Shown here one piece after another: positions 42,928-47,870 of a stretch of DNA of 64,000 bases. Below the pieces are notes generated by a model that made no database searches, was not told where the DNA came from, and was given only the letters and a program-made list of their open reading frames with translations. Both the position numbers and the translations under genes were made by a program. Source of the DNA: Mangrovimonas spongiae (GTDB lineage: Bacteria > Bacteroidota > Bacteroidia > Flavobacteriales > Flavobacteriaceae). Every line of letters begins with the position of its first letter. The stretch's first letter is position 1. Where the stretch lies: assembly GCF_003944795.1 (NCBI RefSeq), contig NZ_RWBG01000005.1, positions 1 to 64,000 of the forward strand, given 5' to 3'.

Positions 42928-44220
42928 TTAATCCAAAAGAAAAGTTTTTAATTGCTCGTAAGTTGAAATTTTAACGGCTAGTTTTTCTTTATCCATAACA
43001 TTTAAAATTTGTTTAGGAAGTTCTATATTTTCTTTAATAATATTTTCTACAATATCTAAAAATTTAGTTGGGTGAGCGGTCTCTAAAAACACACAATAAT
43101 CATTAGGATGTTGCTTTAAATAGTCTTTACAAGCTAAAAAACCAACGGCACCATGTGGGTCTGCAATATAATTGTAGTCATGGTAAAGTTCTTTTATAGC
43201 ACGTATAGTTTCTGCATCAGAATAACTATAACCACTCATGTTTTTAGACAATGTTTTAAAATTGTTATGATGTAATTCTTGAATACGCACAAAATTACTT
43301 GGATCGCCAACATCCATAGCATTACTAATTGTTTGGATTGATGGTTTTGGAGTGTAATCCTGAGTATGTAAATATTGCGTAACAATATTATTAGCATTAT
43401 TGGCGGCTATAAAATGTTTTATAGGCAAGCCTAAACGTTGTGCCATCATACCTGCGCAAATATTTCCAAAATTTCCACTGGGTACCGAAAACACAAGGTT
43501 ATTATGTGTTTTGTGTAACTGTTGGTAAGCAAACATAAAGTAAAACATTTGTGGTAACCAACGAGCTACATTTATGGAGTTTGCCGAGGTAAGTTGTATT
43601 TTGTTGGTGATAGACTGATCTAAAAAAGCCCGTTTTACCATAGCTTGACAATCATCAAATGTACCATCAACTTCTAATGCTTTAATATTTTTTTTAAGTG
43701 TTGTTAATTGCTTTTCTTGAATATCGCTTACTTTTCCGCTAGGGTATAAAATAACCACATTAACGCCTTCTACACCTAAAAAACCATTAGCAACCGCACC
43801 GCCAGTATCGCCCGAAGTGGCTACTAAAACAGTAACTTCATGATTGTTTCCTTGATTAAAATAGCCTAAGCATCTTGCCATAAATCTTGCACCAACATCT
43901 TTAAATGCCATAGTTGGACCATGAAAAAGCTCTAATGTAGCAATGTTATCGGTTATTTCTTCAATAGGAAAATTAAATGATAATGTGTCCTCTGTAATAT
44001 TTTTTAAGACATCTTCAGGAATATCAGGTGATGTAAATTGTTTTATGGTTTCAAAAGCAATTTCAGGATACGACATGGTATCAATATCCTTAAAAAAAGA
44101 ATCGGGGAGTGGTGTAATATGTTCCGGAAAATATAAACCTTTATCTGGTGCAAGTCCTTTTATTACGGCATCTTTAAAGCTCGTTTTTGGAGCTTGATTA
44201 TTTAAAGAATAATATGTCAT
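42928..44220 (-). CDS. thrC: Threonine synthase
   Basis: 430 aa. Converts O-phospho-L-homoserine to L-threonine with PLP. The Schiff-base lysine is in HGPTMAFKDVGARFMA (K107). TSGDTGGAVANGFLG binds the cofactor phosphate, and VPSGNFGNICAGMMAQRLGLPI and DPHGAVGFLA are also family-typical. The length matches the E. coli-type (short N-terminus) enzyme. The start codon overlaps the thrB stop by 4 bp (ATGA), so translation is coupled. Subject to the Thr/Ile leader upstream of thrA. Confidence 0.97.
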   Translation of the reverse strand: MTYYSLNNQAPKTSFKDAVIKGLAPDKGLYFPEHITPLPDSFFKDIDTMSYPEIAFETIKQFTSPDIPEDVLKNITEDTLSFNFPIEEITDNIATLELFHGPTMAFKDVGARFMARCLGYFNQGNNHEVTVLVATSGDTGGAVANGFLGVEGVNVVILYPSGKVSDIQEKQLTTLKKNIKALEVDGTFDDCQAMVKRAFLDQSITNKIQLTSANSINVARWLPQMFYFMFAYQQLHKTHNNLVFSVPSGNFGNICAGMMAQRLGLPIKHFIAANNANNIVTQYLHTQDYTPKPSIQTISNAMDVGDPSNFVRIQELHHNNFKTLSKNMSGYSYSDAETIRAIKELYHDYNYIADPHGAVGFLACKDYLKQHPNDYCVFLETAHPTKFLDIVENIIKENIELPKQILNVMDKEKLAVKISTYEQLKTFLLD

Positions 44221-45140
44221 GATATTGTTTTTATACCTTGAGAGTTAATTTTTGACACATAGATTTTAAAATCTATAGTTGTGTTTTTATAAACGTTTTG
44301 AAAAGCTTTGGCCACTTGTTTGGCTTTGATTTCTCCTTGAGAAAGTGCAAAAATAGATGGGCCAGAACCCGAAATCCCTACTCCTAAAGCACCAGATTGT
44401 ATCGCCAAGCTTTTAGCTTCATCAAAATACGGAATAAGTTGCTTTCTGTGTGGCTCTACAATATTGTCTTCCAACGAACGGCTAATTAAATTATAATCCA
44501 ACGTATGTAATCCATGAACTAAACTACCAACATTTGCCCATTGGGCAATCCCTTTTTTAAGAGGAATGGTTTTTGGCAATAAAGCTCTTGCTTCCGAAGT
44601 TTTTACTTCAATTTGTGGATGCACAATTGTTGCATAAAGTTCTTTAGGTGTTGGTAATTCTAAAATTTCCAGAGGATTTAAGCTTTTAACTAAGGTGAAA
44701 CCACCAAAAAGTCCAGGAGCAATATTATCGGCATGTTCGTTGCCACTTGCAACAGCTTCTCCTTTCATGGCAAAAGCGGTTAGTTGTTTTTTGTTAAAGG
44801 GATTTCCAAGCAGTTCGTTAATGGCAAAAACGGTTCCTGAAGCACTTGCCGAACTACTACCGATACCACTTCCTGGTTTAATACGTTTACAGATTTCAAT
44901 ATCGAACCCAAAAGTAACTTGTGCCGCTTTTAAAATGGCCAATCCAGCAACACCAGCAACGTTTTTTTCTGGATTTAAAGGAAGTTTGTAGCCTTCAATT
45001 TTACTAATTGTAATGCCTTTTGATTTTGTTTTCCTAATAATCATGTCATCACCTACAGAGTCTAGGCAAAACCCAAGAACATCAAAGCCACAAGAAACAT
45101 TGGCTACTGTTGCTGGCGAAAATATTTTTATAGTATCCAT
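44217..45140 (-). CDS. thrB: Homoserine kinase
   Basis: 307 aa from the ATG at 45140; the open frame extends further but into thrA, and the family start MDTIKIFSPATVANVSCGFDVLGFCLD begins here. GHMP-kinase motifs: PGSGIGSSSASASGTVFAINELLG (ATP-binding loop) and GALGVGISGSGPSIFAL (C-terminal motif 3). It phosphorylates homoserine for ThrC. It starts 1 bp after the thrA stop and overlaps thrC by 4 bp, a tightly coupled thrABC order as in enterobacteria. Confidence 0.96.
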   Translation of the reverse strand: MDTIKIFSPATVANVSCGFDVLGFCLDSVGDDMIIRKTKSKGITISKIEGYKLPLNPEKNVAGVAGLAILKAAQVTFGFDIEICKRIKPGSGIGSSSASASGTVFAINELLGNPFNKKQLTAFAMKGEAVASGNEHADNIAPGLFGGFTLVKSLNPLEILELPTPKELYATIVHPQIEVKTSEARALLPKTIPLKKGIAQWANVGSLVHGLHTLDYNLISRSLEDNIVEPHRKQLIPYFDEAKSLAIQSGALGVGISGSGPSIFALSQGEIKAKQVAKAFQNVYKNTTIDFKIYVSKINSQGIKTIS

Positions 45141-45141
45141 A

Positions 45142-47586
45142 TTAGTCGTTTCCAATTCGTATAATATCAGCAAATAACCCAGAAGCTGTAACATCTGCAC
45201 CAGCCCCAGCCCCTTTAATAATCATAGGTTGCTCTACATAGCGTTTCGTGTAAAACATCACAATGTTATCTTTACCTTCTAAGTTGTAAAAAGGATGACC
45301 TTGCGGTATTTCTTTAAGTCCTACGCTTGCTTTTCCATTATTAAATTCGGCGACATATTTCAATTTACAACCATTTTTTTTAGCTGAAGCAAATAATTTT
45401 TGAAAGTGTGCTTCATCATCGATTAAGGTATTGTAAAAGTCTTCAACAGTGTTGCTTTCCAGATTCTTTTTTGTAAGAAATGATGTGTTTGTAATATCTT
45501 CCAATTCCATAGTAGAGCCACTTTCTCTGGCTAAAATCAATATTTTTCTCGCTACGTCAACACCACTTAAATCAATCCTTGGATCCGGTTCTGTGTATCC
45601 TTCTTTTTGGGCTTGCTTAACAACATCATGAAACTTTGTTGTATCGTTAAAATGATTAAACACAAAATTTAAGCTTCCAGATAAAACCGCTTGAACTGAG
45701 ATAATTTTGTCGCCAGATGCAATAAGATTATTTAGCGTATCTATAACAGGTAGTCCAGCGCCTACATTAGTTTCAAATAAAAACGGCGCGTTATATTTTC
45801 TAGATAAATATTTTAGCTCTTTATAGGTGTTAAAGGTGTCTGAACACGCAATTTTATTACACGCCACAACGGCAATGCTTTCTTTTAAATATTTTGAATA
45901 CAGATTGGCTACATCTCCATTGGCTGTAATATCAACAAAAATGCTATTGCGTTTATTTAAGGCCTTTGTTTGGTTAAAAAAACCGTTTAATGAAGCAGGT
46001 TTTCCTTGTTTTAGAAACGCTTTCCATTTTTTAAGAGGAATACCTTCAGCATCAAAAACCATGGTTCTAGAGTTTGATAAGCCAATCACACGCAAATTAA
46101 TTTTTAAGGTATCTTTTAAGTATTTTTGTTGTTGTTTTATTTGTTCAACAAGGCGTTCTCCCACGTTTCCTACACCAGTTATAAAAACATTAAGTTGTTT
46201 TGTTTTTACCTCAAAAAAGGCTTCGTGTAAGGTATTTAAAGCTTTTTTAACATCGTGTTTTGTAATTACAGCAGAAATATTTTTTTCTGAAGCTCCTTGT
46301 GCAATGGCTCTTACATTAATATTATTCTTTCCTAATGCACTAAACATTTTTCCGCTAATACCTTGGTGGTTTTTCATGTTGTCACCAATAAGAGCTATAA
46401 TAGCTAAATCATTTTCAATTAAAATAGGGTTAATTTTATGTTGTGAGATTTCGTATGTAAAGTTTGAATCGATAATGGTTTTGGCTAATTCAGCTTCCTC
46501 GGAATTAACACCAAAACAAATAGAATGTTCTGATGAGGCTTGTGTAATAAAAACAACATTAATTTTATGGTTTGCAAGCGTTTCAAAAAGACGTTTAGAA
46601 AATCCCGGAATACCAATCATGCCACTACCTTCTAAGGTTAATAACGATATATTATCTACATTACTAATGCCACGAACAGATAATTTATTACTTGTATATG
46701 ATGTAGTAATTTGAGTGCCTTTTGCTTCCGGTTTTAAGGTGTTTTTAATAACCAAAGGAATGCCCTTATCTAATATAGGTTGTATGGTTGGTGGATATAG
46801 TACTTTGGCGCCAAAATGAGACAACTCCATAGCTTCTTGATATGATAAAAGTGCAATTGGGTAGGCTTGTTTAACAAGTTTAGGATTAGCAGTGTACATA
46901 CCGCTTACATCGGTCCAAATTTCAAGTTGTTTAACATGTAATGCAGCCGCAACAATAGCTGCTGTAAAATCCGATCCGCCACGACCAAGTGTTGTAATGT
47001 CGCCTAAAGTTGATTTAGAAATAAAACCTGGTAAAACAGTAATGGTTTCTTTAGCATCTTTAAAGTACAATTGTATGCTATTATAGGTAATATCATAATT
47101 GACTTCGGCTTTAGTAAAGTTTGAATTGGTAACAATTAAATCTTGACTGTTTTTTCGTTTTGCTTTTAAATGGCGTGATTTTAAAGCTTCGGTAATAATA
47201 AAAGACGATAAAAGTTCACCAAAACTAACCAGTTTGTCAGATGTTTTAGGCGATAGCTCGTTTATTAAATAAATGCCATCTAACAAGCTTTTAAGGTTGT
47301 TTAGCTTTGTTTGTAATTTATCTAAAATATCTTGTGGTGTATTTGGAATAAGCTCAGATAAGATATCAAAATGAATGTCTTTAATATCATTGAAATTAGA
47401 GATATAGGCATCGTTTTTCAACTGGGCACTGTATCCGCACGCCAATAATTTATCAGTAATACCTCCTATGGCAGAAACCACAGCAATTACGTTTTGTTTT
47501 TTAGAATATTGCTCTATAATATCAATAACTTTATTGATGTTTTTTGCAGAACCTACAGATGTTCCACCAAATTTTAATACGTTCAT
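45142..47586 (-). CDS. thrA: Bifunctional aspartate kinase / homoserine dehydrogenase I
   Basis: 814 aa from the ATG at 47586, where the family start MNVLKFGGTSVGSAKNI begins; the 28 upstream codons are untypical. Residues 1-290 are aspartokinase (KFGGTSVG, GRGGSDFTAAIVAA, WTDVSGMYTANPK). About 300-450 are ACT regulatory domains (SVRGISNVDNISLLTLEGSGM, HSICFGVN). About 460-814 are homoserine dehydrogenase with the NAD(P) motif FITGVGNVGERLVEQ, then PFLFETNVGAGLPVI and GYTEPDPRIDLSGVDVARK. It catalyses the first and third steps from aspartate to threonine and methionine. Transcription is probably attenuated by the leader peptide at 47673-47777. Confidence 0.97.
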   Translation of the reverse strand: MNVLKFGGTSVGSAKNINKVIDIIEQYSKKQNVIAVVSAIGGITDKLLACGYSAQLKNDAYISNFNDIKDIHFDILSELIPNTPQDILDKLQTKLNNLKSLLDGIYLINELSPKTSDKLVSFGELLSSFIITEALKSRHLKAKRKNSQDLIVTNSNFTKAEVNYDITYNSIQLYFKDAKETITVLPGFISKSTLGDITTLGRGGSDFTAAIVAAALHVKQLEIWTDVSGMYTANPKLVKQAYPIALLSYQEAMELSHFGAKVLYPPTIQPILDKGIPLVIKNTLKPEAKGTQITTSYTSNKLSVRGISNVDNISLLTLEGSGMIGIPGFSKRLFETLANHKINVVFITQASSEHSICFGVNSEEAELAKTIIDSNFTYEISQHKINPILIENDLAIIALIGDNMKNHQGISGKMFSALGKNNINVRAIAQGASEKNISAVITKHDVKKALNTLHEAFFEVKTKQLNVFITGVGNVGERLVEQIKQQQKYLKDTLKINLRVIGLSNSRTMVFDAEGIPLKKWKAFLKQGKPASLNGFFNQTKALNKRNSIFVDITANGDVANLYSKYLKESIAVVACNKIACSDTFNTYKELKYLSRKYNAPFLFETNVGAGLPVIDTLNNLIASGDKIISVQAVLSGSLNFVFNHFNDTTKFHDVVKQAQKEGYTEPDPRIDLSGVDVARKILILARESGSTMELEDITNTSFLTKKNLESNTVEDFYNTLIDDEAHFQKLFASAKKNGCKLKYVAEFNNGKASVGLKEIPQGHPFYNLEGKDNIVMFYTKRYVEQPMIIKGAGAGADVTASGLFADIIRIGND

Positions 47587-47617
47587 TTTTAAATGACTTA
47601 AAAGGTTATTTTTTATG

Positions 47618-47639
47618 AAAAAACGTGTTTTAAAAACAC
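47618..47639 (-). terminator. Candidate attenuator terminator in the thr leader
   Basis: On the minus strand the palindrome GTGTTTTTAAAACAC (47639-47625) is followed by G and six T. It lies between the leader peptide stop and the thrA start (47586), the right place for an attenuator. The stem is short and A/T-rich, so it is not compelling on its own. Confidence 0.45.
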
Positions 47640-47666
47640 TATATAACGGGAGAGAAATAATAGTAC

Positions 47667-47684
47667 ACAACCCTAACGGGTTGT
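47667..47684 (-). promoter_or_regulatory. Hairpin spanning the end of the thr leader ORF
   Basis: A 7-bp perfect stem ACAACCC / GGGTTGT with a 4-nt loop holding part of the leader stop codon. A translating or terminating ribosome would melt or block it, as expected of an attenuation RNA element. A second hairpin within the leader ORF (47723-47742, GGCTACTA / TAGTAACC on the minus strand, one mismatch) covers codons for Ala-Thr-Ile. Confidence 0.5.
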
Positions 47685-47777
47685 AATAATAGCTGTAGAA
47701 ATAATTGTTGTATAGCCCATTAGGTTACTAAAAATAGTAGCCGTTGTTACGTTGTTATTTGTTACCTTCGTGAGCAT
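47673..47777 (-). CDS. thrL: Thr/Ile-rich leader peptide of the thrABC operon
   Basis: A 34-codon ORF, ATG at 47777 and TAG at 47675-47673, 86 bp upstream of thrA on the same strand. Ten codons are Thr and five are Ile (44 percent), with runs such as YTTIISTAIITT near the end. This matches the composition and position of E. coli ThrL, whose translation senses charged tRNA-Thr and tRNA-Ile and sets termination before thrA. The residues do not align with ThrL; only composition and layout agree. A Bacteroidota -7 element ends 9 bp before the ATG, so the transcript is nearly leaderless. Hairpins lie at its stop and between it and thrA. Confidence 0.82.
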   Translation of the reverse strand: MLTKVTNNNVTTATIFSNLMGYTTIISTAIITTR

Positions 47778-47785
47778 ATACAAAT

Positions 47786-47793
47786 CAAATGTA
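47786..47793 (-). promoter_or_regulatory. -7 element of the thr operon promoter
   Basis: The minus strand reads TACATTTG, an exact TAnnTTTG, ending 9 bp before the leader-peptide ATG. The -33 region 19 nt upstream is T-rich without a clear TTG. Confidence 0.5.
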
Positions 47794-47870
47794 TTGTTTT
47801 AAGTTTAATAAAAAAACTGTTTGTATATTTTTATAGATTTAACAAAAAACACAACAAGTTTTTAATAAAA

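Follow-up and report, generated by a model that had tools for sequence, protein, structure and literature searches.

Attenuators that work through a leader peptide have been described mainly in Proteobacteria, Actinobacteria and Firmicutes, and the locus described here raises the question of whether a member of the Bacteroidota senses threonine in this way and, if so, how the signal is passed on to its thr operon. The window, a stretch of 64,000 nucleotides of DNA from the marine bacterium Mangrovimonas spongiae, carries on its minus strand thrA (45142-47586), which encodes a bifunctional aspartokinase/homoserine dehydrogenase and is the first gene of the controlled thrABC operon, together with thrB (44217-45140) and thrC (42928-44220), both of which were named from their translations. 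A preliminary description made from the letters of the window had pointed to a short Thr/Ile-rich ORF and several hairpins ahead of thrA and had likened them to the ribosome-mediated attenuator of enterobacteria.

The ORF was found as described, with coordinates and codon counts correct. It extends from 47777 to 47673 on the minus strand (ATG at 47777, TAG stop at 47675-47673), comprises 34 codons before the stop, 10 for Thr and 5 for Ile, encodes the peptide MLTKVTNNNVTTATIFSNLMGYTTIISTAIITTR and ends 86 nt before the thrA ATG (47586). It is absent from the annotation; like the His, Trp and Phe/Tyr leaders of this lineage, it is too short to be picked up by gene callers. When the upstream region was shuffled 2000 times with dinucleotides preserved, just 2 of the shuffles contained an ORF with 10 or more Thr codons, and this is the sole short ORF with such a Thr/Ile content across the entire 64-kb window. 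The ORF did not arise by chance. A search of the leader against Rfam, with matches accepted up to E = 1, gave no family.

The promoter element of the preliminary description was also present: TACATTTG at 47793-47786 (minus), 8 nt upstream of the leader ATG, is an exact match to the TAnnTTTG (-7) promoter box, the consensus being that given in PMC9723704. Transcription would start at about 47782, just upstream of the Thr/Ile-rich ORF. Upstream of the leader start, a TAnnTTT[GA] box was found in 163 of 168 related loci, where the gap between the two has a family median of 19 nt and is 10 nt or less in only 19 of the 163. The nearly leaderless transcript that had been suggested fits the genus of the window and is atypical of the family; since the 8-nt gap characterizes that genus and its close neighbours, we regard it as a local, clade-specific variant. 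A T-rich tract at 47806-47817 (minus), about 13-24 nt upstream of the box, recurs in many relatives and may belong to the promoter.

Loci for comparison were gathered with ThrA as the query from named genomes and sampled genomes of Flavobacteriaceae. A Thr/Ile-rich leader ending at a CCC...GGG stop-codon hairpin in the same place was detected in 168 of the 210 distinct thrA upstream regions of this family, with a few further weak cases below the score limit, and is missing from about a fifth of them. The short ORF and its codon bias are conserved. The leader peptides of relatives take the form MNHLNQNT...GTTSIFGTTTIITTLWGC or ...TTTTPLG, with a TTTIITT-like C-terminus whose Thr codons extend into the 5' arm of the stop-codon hairpin (hairpin A, below). 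Thr and Ile account for 21% and 12% of leader residues compared with 6% and 9% in ThrA. The N-terminal half is free to vary across the family, and the Thr codons and the hairpin A codons are conserved. Between close pairs, single-base changes in Thr codons were synonymous in 45 of 98 cases (46%, compared with about 33% by chance), and most other residues lay far lower, with values of 0-20% for Ser, Asn, Leu and Ala codons of the leader. For all leader codons together, 96 synonymous changes were observed where 69 were expected; because this excess is modest and is seen in a shifted frame too, we relied on the Thr-specific result.

Several loci have other arrangements. The TAnnTTTG box lies directly before thrA, with no leader, in L077, L086, L089, L094 and L105 (several Lacinutrix, Oceanihabitans), where the leader was apparently lost. 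Two loci, L015 and L020, have no leader and carry just upstream of thrA a frame that resembles the end of threonine deaminase (named from translation), and about 60-100 extra bases separate the leader element from thrA in L058, L059, L145, L224, L246, L258 and L259. Within the genus of the window, genome G002 had no close thrA match and only more distant aspartokinase homologues, and the upstream sequence of Mangrovimonas sp. ST2L15 (L033) is identical to that of another genome of the genus (L004).

As a whole, the predicted leader RNA has just a small folding advantage over shuffled sequence (z -1.65, single sequence), so the structures reported here rest on comparison with relatives and not on energy. 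All three hairpins and the T6 run that had been noted lie at their original positions. Hairpin P (GGCTACTATTTTTAGTAACC, 47742-47723, minus) lies inside the ORF and is conserved as structure, reaching a dG of -2 kcal/mol or lower in 82% of loci compared with 37% of codon-order shuffles; it is a possible pause hairpin. Hairpin A (ACAACCC-GTTA-GGGTTGT, 47684-47667, minus), around the leader stop codon, is conserved as sequence, its CCC/GGG being nearly invariant, with 95% of cells paired in 63 distinct sequences, and the Thr codons reach into its 5' arm in nearly all loci. At a near-constant distance from hairpin A across the family follows a conserved unpaired box (ATTATTTCTCTCCCGT, 47661-47646, minus; family consensus YAYAUAU-n-UCCGUCC), in a stretch for which less pairing is predicted than for shuffled sequence. 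Hairpin C (GTGTTTTTAAAACAC, 47639-47625, minus) is again conserved as structure and was found in 74 of 116 loci as 74 different stem-loops, always 30-42 nt past the GGG. Pairing between its two arms is far stronger in the native combinations than when arms are swapped among loci (z -12.9). Relatedness remains in this permutation, but the constant location of the hairpin and the variety of its base pairs agree with the result. The T6 tail 3' of hairpin C (47623-47618, minus) is a local feature and is not conserved. Searched with a covariance model built from hairpin A and the box, no genome yielded more than one match; those with E < 0.1 were all thrA leaders, and matches without a nearby thrA were few, at chance level.

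Relatives do not conserve the T6-tailed hairpin as a terminator. In the window, hairpin C before T6 is weak (dG about -3.8); a 92%-identical relative (L002) already has the T6 interrupted (GTTTTCAAT), L003 and L004 lack it, and in relatives the sequence past hairpin C is no richer in T than background. Strong intrinsic terminators (dG of -8 or lower) were found at none of the family's thr leaders in 116 diverse loci (0/116), and a search at -4 or lower gave 9 of 116, compared with about 1 in shuffles. What the family has is a covarying hairpin without a U-tract, and an unpaired box where the terminator would sit. Hairpin A was flagged by a pattern scan as a candidate terminator and was rejected, since what comes after it, UACUAUUAUU in the window and UAAUUAUAUAU-like sequences in relatives, is no U-tract.

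Nor did the mutually exclusive hairpins that the preliminary description had proposed to look for emerge: an alternative antiterminator pairing was sought in the window and none was found, nor was any mutually exclusive antiterminator/terminator pair. When the 5' arm of hairpin A was masked in folding, its GGG arm preferred the box as partner. The resulting stem B, in which this arm, once freed, would pair with the box, was rejected as an antiterminator, its native pairs being weaker than permuted ones (z +4.8). Because the same permutation test picks up both hairpin A (z -3.4) and hairpin P (z -5.5), the GGG-box pairing is not claimed; coevolution gives it no support, and no switch structure came out of the comparison. 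A second candidate, in which the Thr-codon region would pair with the 5' arm of hairpin C, gave no signal (z -1.3) and was likewise dropped.

The composition of the same region offers another lead. The segment after hairpin A contains 18% C and 7% G, compared with 12-14% and 10-12% in control upstream regions, an excess of C over G that about 8-10% of the control regions also reach. The C-rich, G-poor, unpaired stretch past the leader ORF has the features expected of a Rho loading region and is an indirect hint of one; a rho gene is encoded.

Sister leaders were found in the same and related genomes, with His codons before hisG, Trp codons before trpE and Phe/Tyr codons before a pheA-type gene. 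In the window's own genome, in other contig regions (L122, L277, L288), there are a His-rich leader before hisG, a Trp-Trp-Trp leader before trpE and a Phe/Tyr-rich leader before a prephenate dehydratase gene (MTFIQLHHHHFHTCTQAS, MNTILNNTWWWNFRNATFVK and MKTNSTFTYYNWFYFFFSKGNEA, in the order hisG, trpE, pheA-type), the first two both with strong intrinsic terminators. Strong hairpins with U-tracts were present at every his (12/12) and trp (8/8) leader tested. Given these sister leaders, the lineage very likely makes use of attenuation coupled to translation. No leader was evident before ilvD in eight genomes. Leaders related to the thr leader are also present in other families of the Bacteroidia; in one family outside Flavobacteriaceae, four thrA genes (L306, L309, L310, L314) are preceded by Thr/Ile-rich leaders with strong intrinsic terminators (dG -16 to -23) behind them. 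As terminator-bearing thr leaders exist outside Flavobacteriaceae, thr attenuation would be older or wider than this family, and as the family's own thr leaders have none, its output step looks different.

From the codon content, its conservation and the position of the Thr codons, the element is very probably a ribosome-based, threonine-sensing leader of the thrABC operon, a judgement that leaves the Rho step aside. When charged tRNA-Thr is scarce, the ribosome would slow or stall at the Thr codons of the leader. Because these codons are placed in the 5' arm of hairpin A, we infer that the position of the ribosome on them governs whether hairpin A folds and how the RNA just downstream is shaped; a stalled ribosome would prevent hairpin A and thereby raise thrABC expression. 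The threonine sensor half of the attenuation first proposed is well supported, and the match to the enterobacterial layout, with its terminator, is not supported. The output step in the family is probably something other than textbook intrinsic termination, and in the genus of the window the weak hairpin and T6 may assist it.

How the output is produced is less certain. One reading, to which we give somewhat less than an even chance, is an attenuator that has lost the intrinsic terminator, in which ribosome position on the Thr codons acts through the stop-codon hairpin, the box and hairpin C and is read by Rho or another factor. Rho-dependent termination at the conserved unpaired C-rich, G-poor stretch past the stop is our leading guess for the output and should be taken as possible rather than probable. 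Classical attenuation of the enterobacterial type, with the hairpin and T6 (47639-47618) as intrinsic terminator and stalling at the Thr codons favouring an antiterminator, could appeal to the presence of both parts in the window and of such terminators at the his and trp leaders of these genomes. It is nevertheless unlikely, given the weak stem, a T tract that is broken in L002 and absent in L003 and L004, the want of any strong terminator among 116 relatives and of an alternative antiterminator pairing in the window.

Alternatively, the leader could control translation or decay of the thrA mRNA and not its transcription: a ribosome that stalls or terminates on the leader would cover or uncover the box and hairpin C, which would serve as a site of cleavage or protein binding. 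The conservation of an unpaired box at a near-fixed distance past the stop codon and the retention of hairpin C without a U-tract are consistent with such control, which we nonetheless consider doubtful: the comparable his and trp leaders look transcriptional because they have terminators, thr leaders elsewhere in Bacteroidia bear terminators as well, and the box has no known factor. That the ORF is instead translated into a small protein with a function of its own, outside threonine sensing, is very improbable. Many relatives do share a conserved C-terminus (TTLWGC/TPLG and similar), but what is conserved are the Thr codons and those forming hairpin A, variation in the N-terminal half is free, and the ORF is tied to thrA with a composition that follows the product of the operon.

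One Bacteroidota lineage bears a set of leaders for Thr, His, Trp and Phe/Tyr, of which the thr member has no Rfam match. Bacteroidota hosts of such leaders mostly do without Shine-Dalgarno sequences, and the thr leader offers a compact and widely conserved test case of control by a leader-ORF ribosome without an intrinsic terminator. The literature searched contained no description of a Bacteroidota thr leader. What appears to be new, on the sequence comparisons made here, is a sensor identical in kind to that of known attenuators without the standard terminator.

The locus resembles the enterobacterial thr leader in having a short Thr/Ile-rich ORF directly before thrABC with hairpins within and after it, and differs in its Bacteroidota-type promoter, its stop-codon hairpin and unpaired box, and its lack of a conserved terminator. 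To our knowledge the leader peptide bears no resemblance to ThrL, and at a limit of E = 1 the leader matched neither the Rfam Thr_leader family, presumably RF00506, nor the Bacteroid-trp RNA motif (RF01692), a candidate cis-regulatory RNA of Bacteroidetes that takes its name from trp genes. In the other Bacteroidia family, the thr leaders are also Thr/Ile-rich and precede thrA but, unlike those of Flavobacteriaceae, are followed by strong terminators. The His, Trp and Phe/Tyr leaders of Flavobacteriaceae share the principle of a run of codons for the operon's amino acid before RNA hairpins, but the strong U-tract terminators of the his and trp leaders are missing from the thr leaders. For a flavobacterium, attenuation by leader peptides has already been published in general terms: the main text of PMC9723704 gives strong clues of it before amino-acid biosynthesis operons of Flavobacterium psychrophilum and describes structured 5' elements ahead of both pheA and hisG. 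That main text does not name thrA and describes neither the missing terminator nor the box. The strong U-tract terminator and Rfam covariance match of a classical thr attenuator are both lacking at our locus. In common with attenuators in general, it has a short upstream ORF rich in codons for the operon's product, conservation of the ORF and its codon bias among relatives, and regulatory codons that overlap an RNA hairpin, whose change of fold would follow the ribosome; with Rho-dependent attenuators it shares a C-rich, G-poor, unstructured stretch past the leader ORF.
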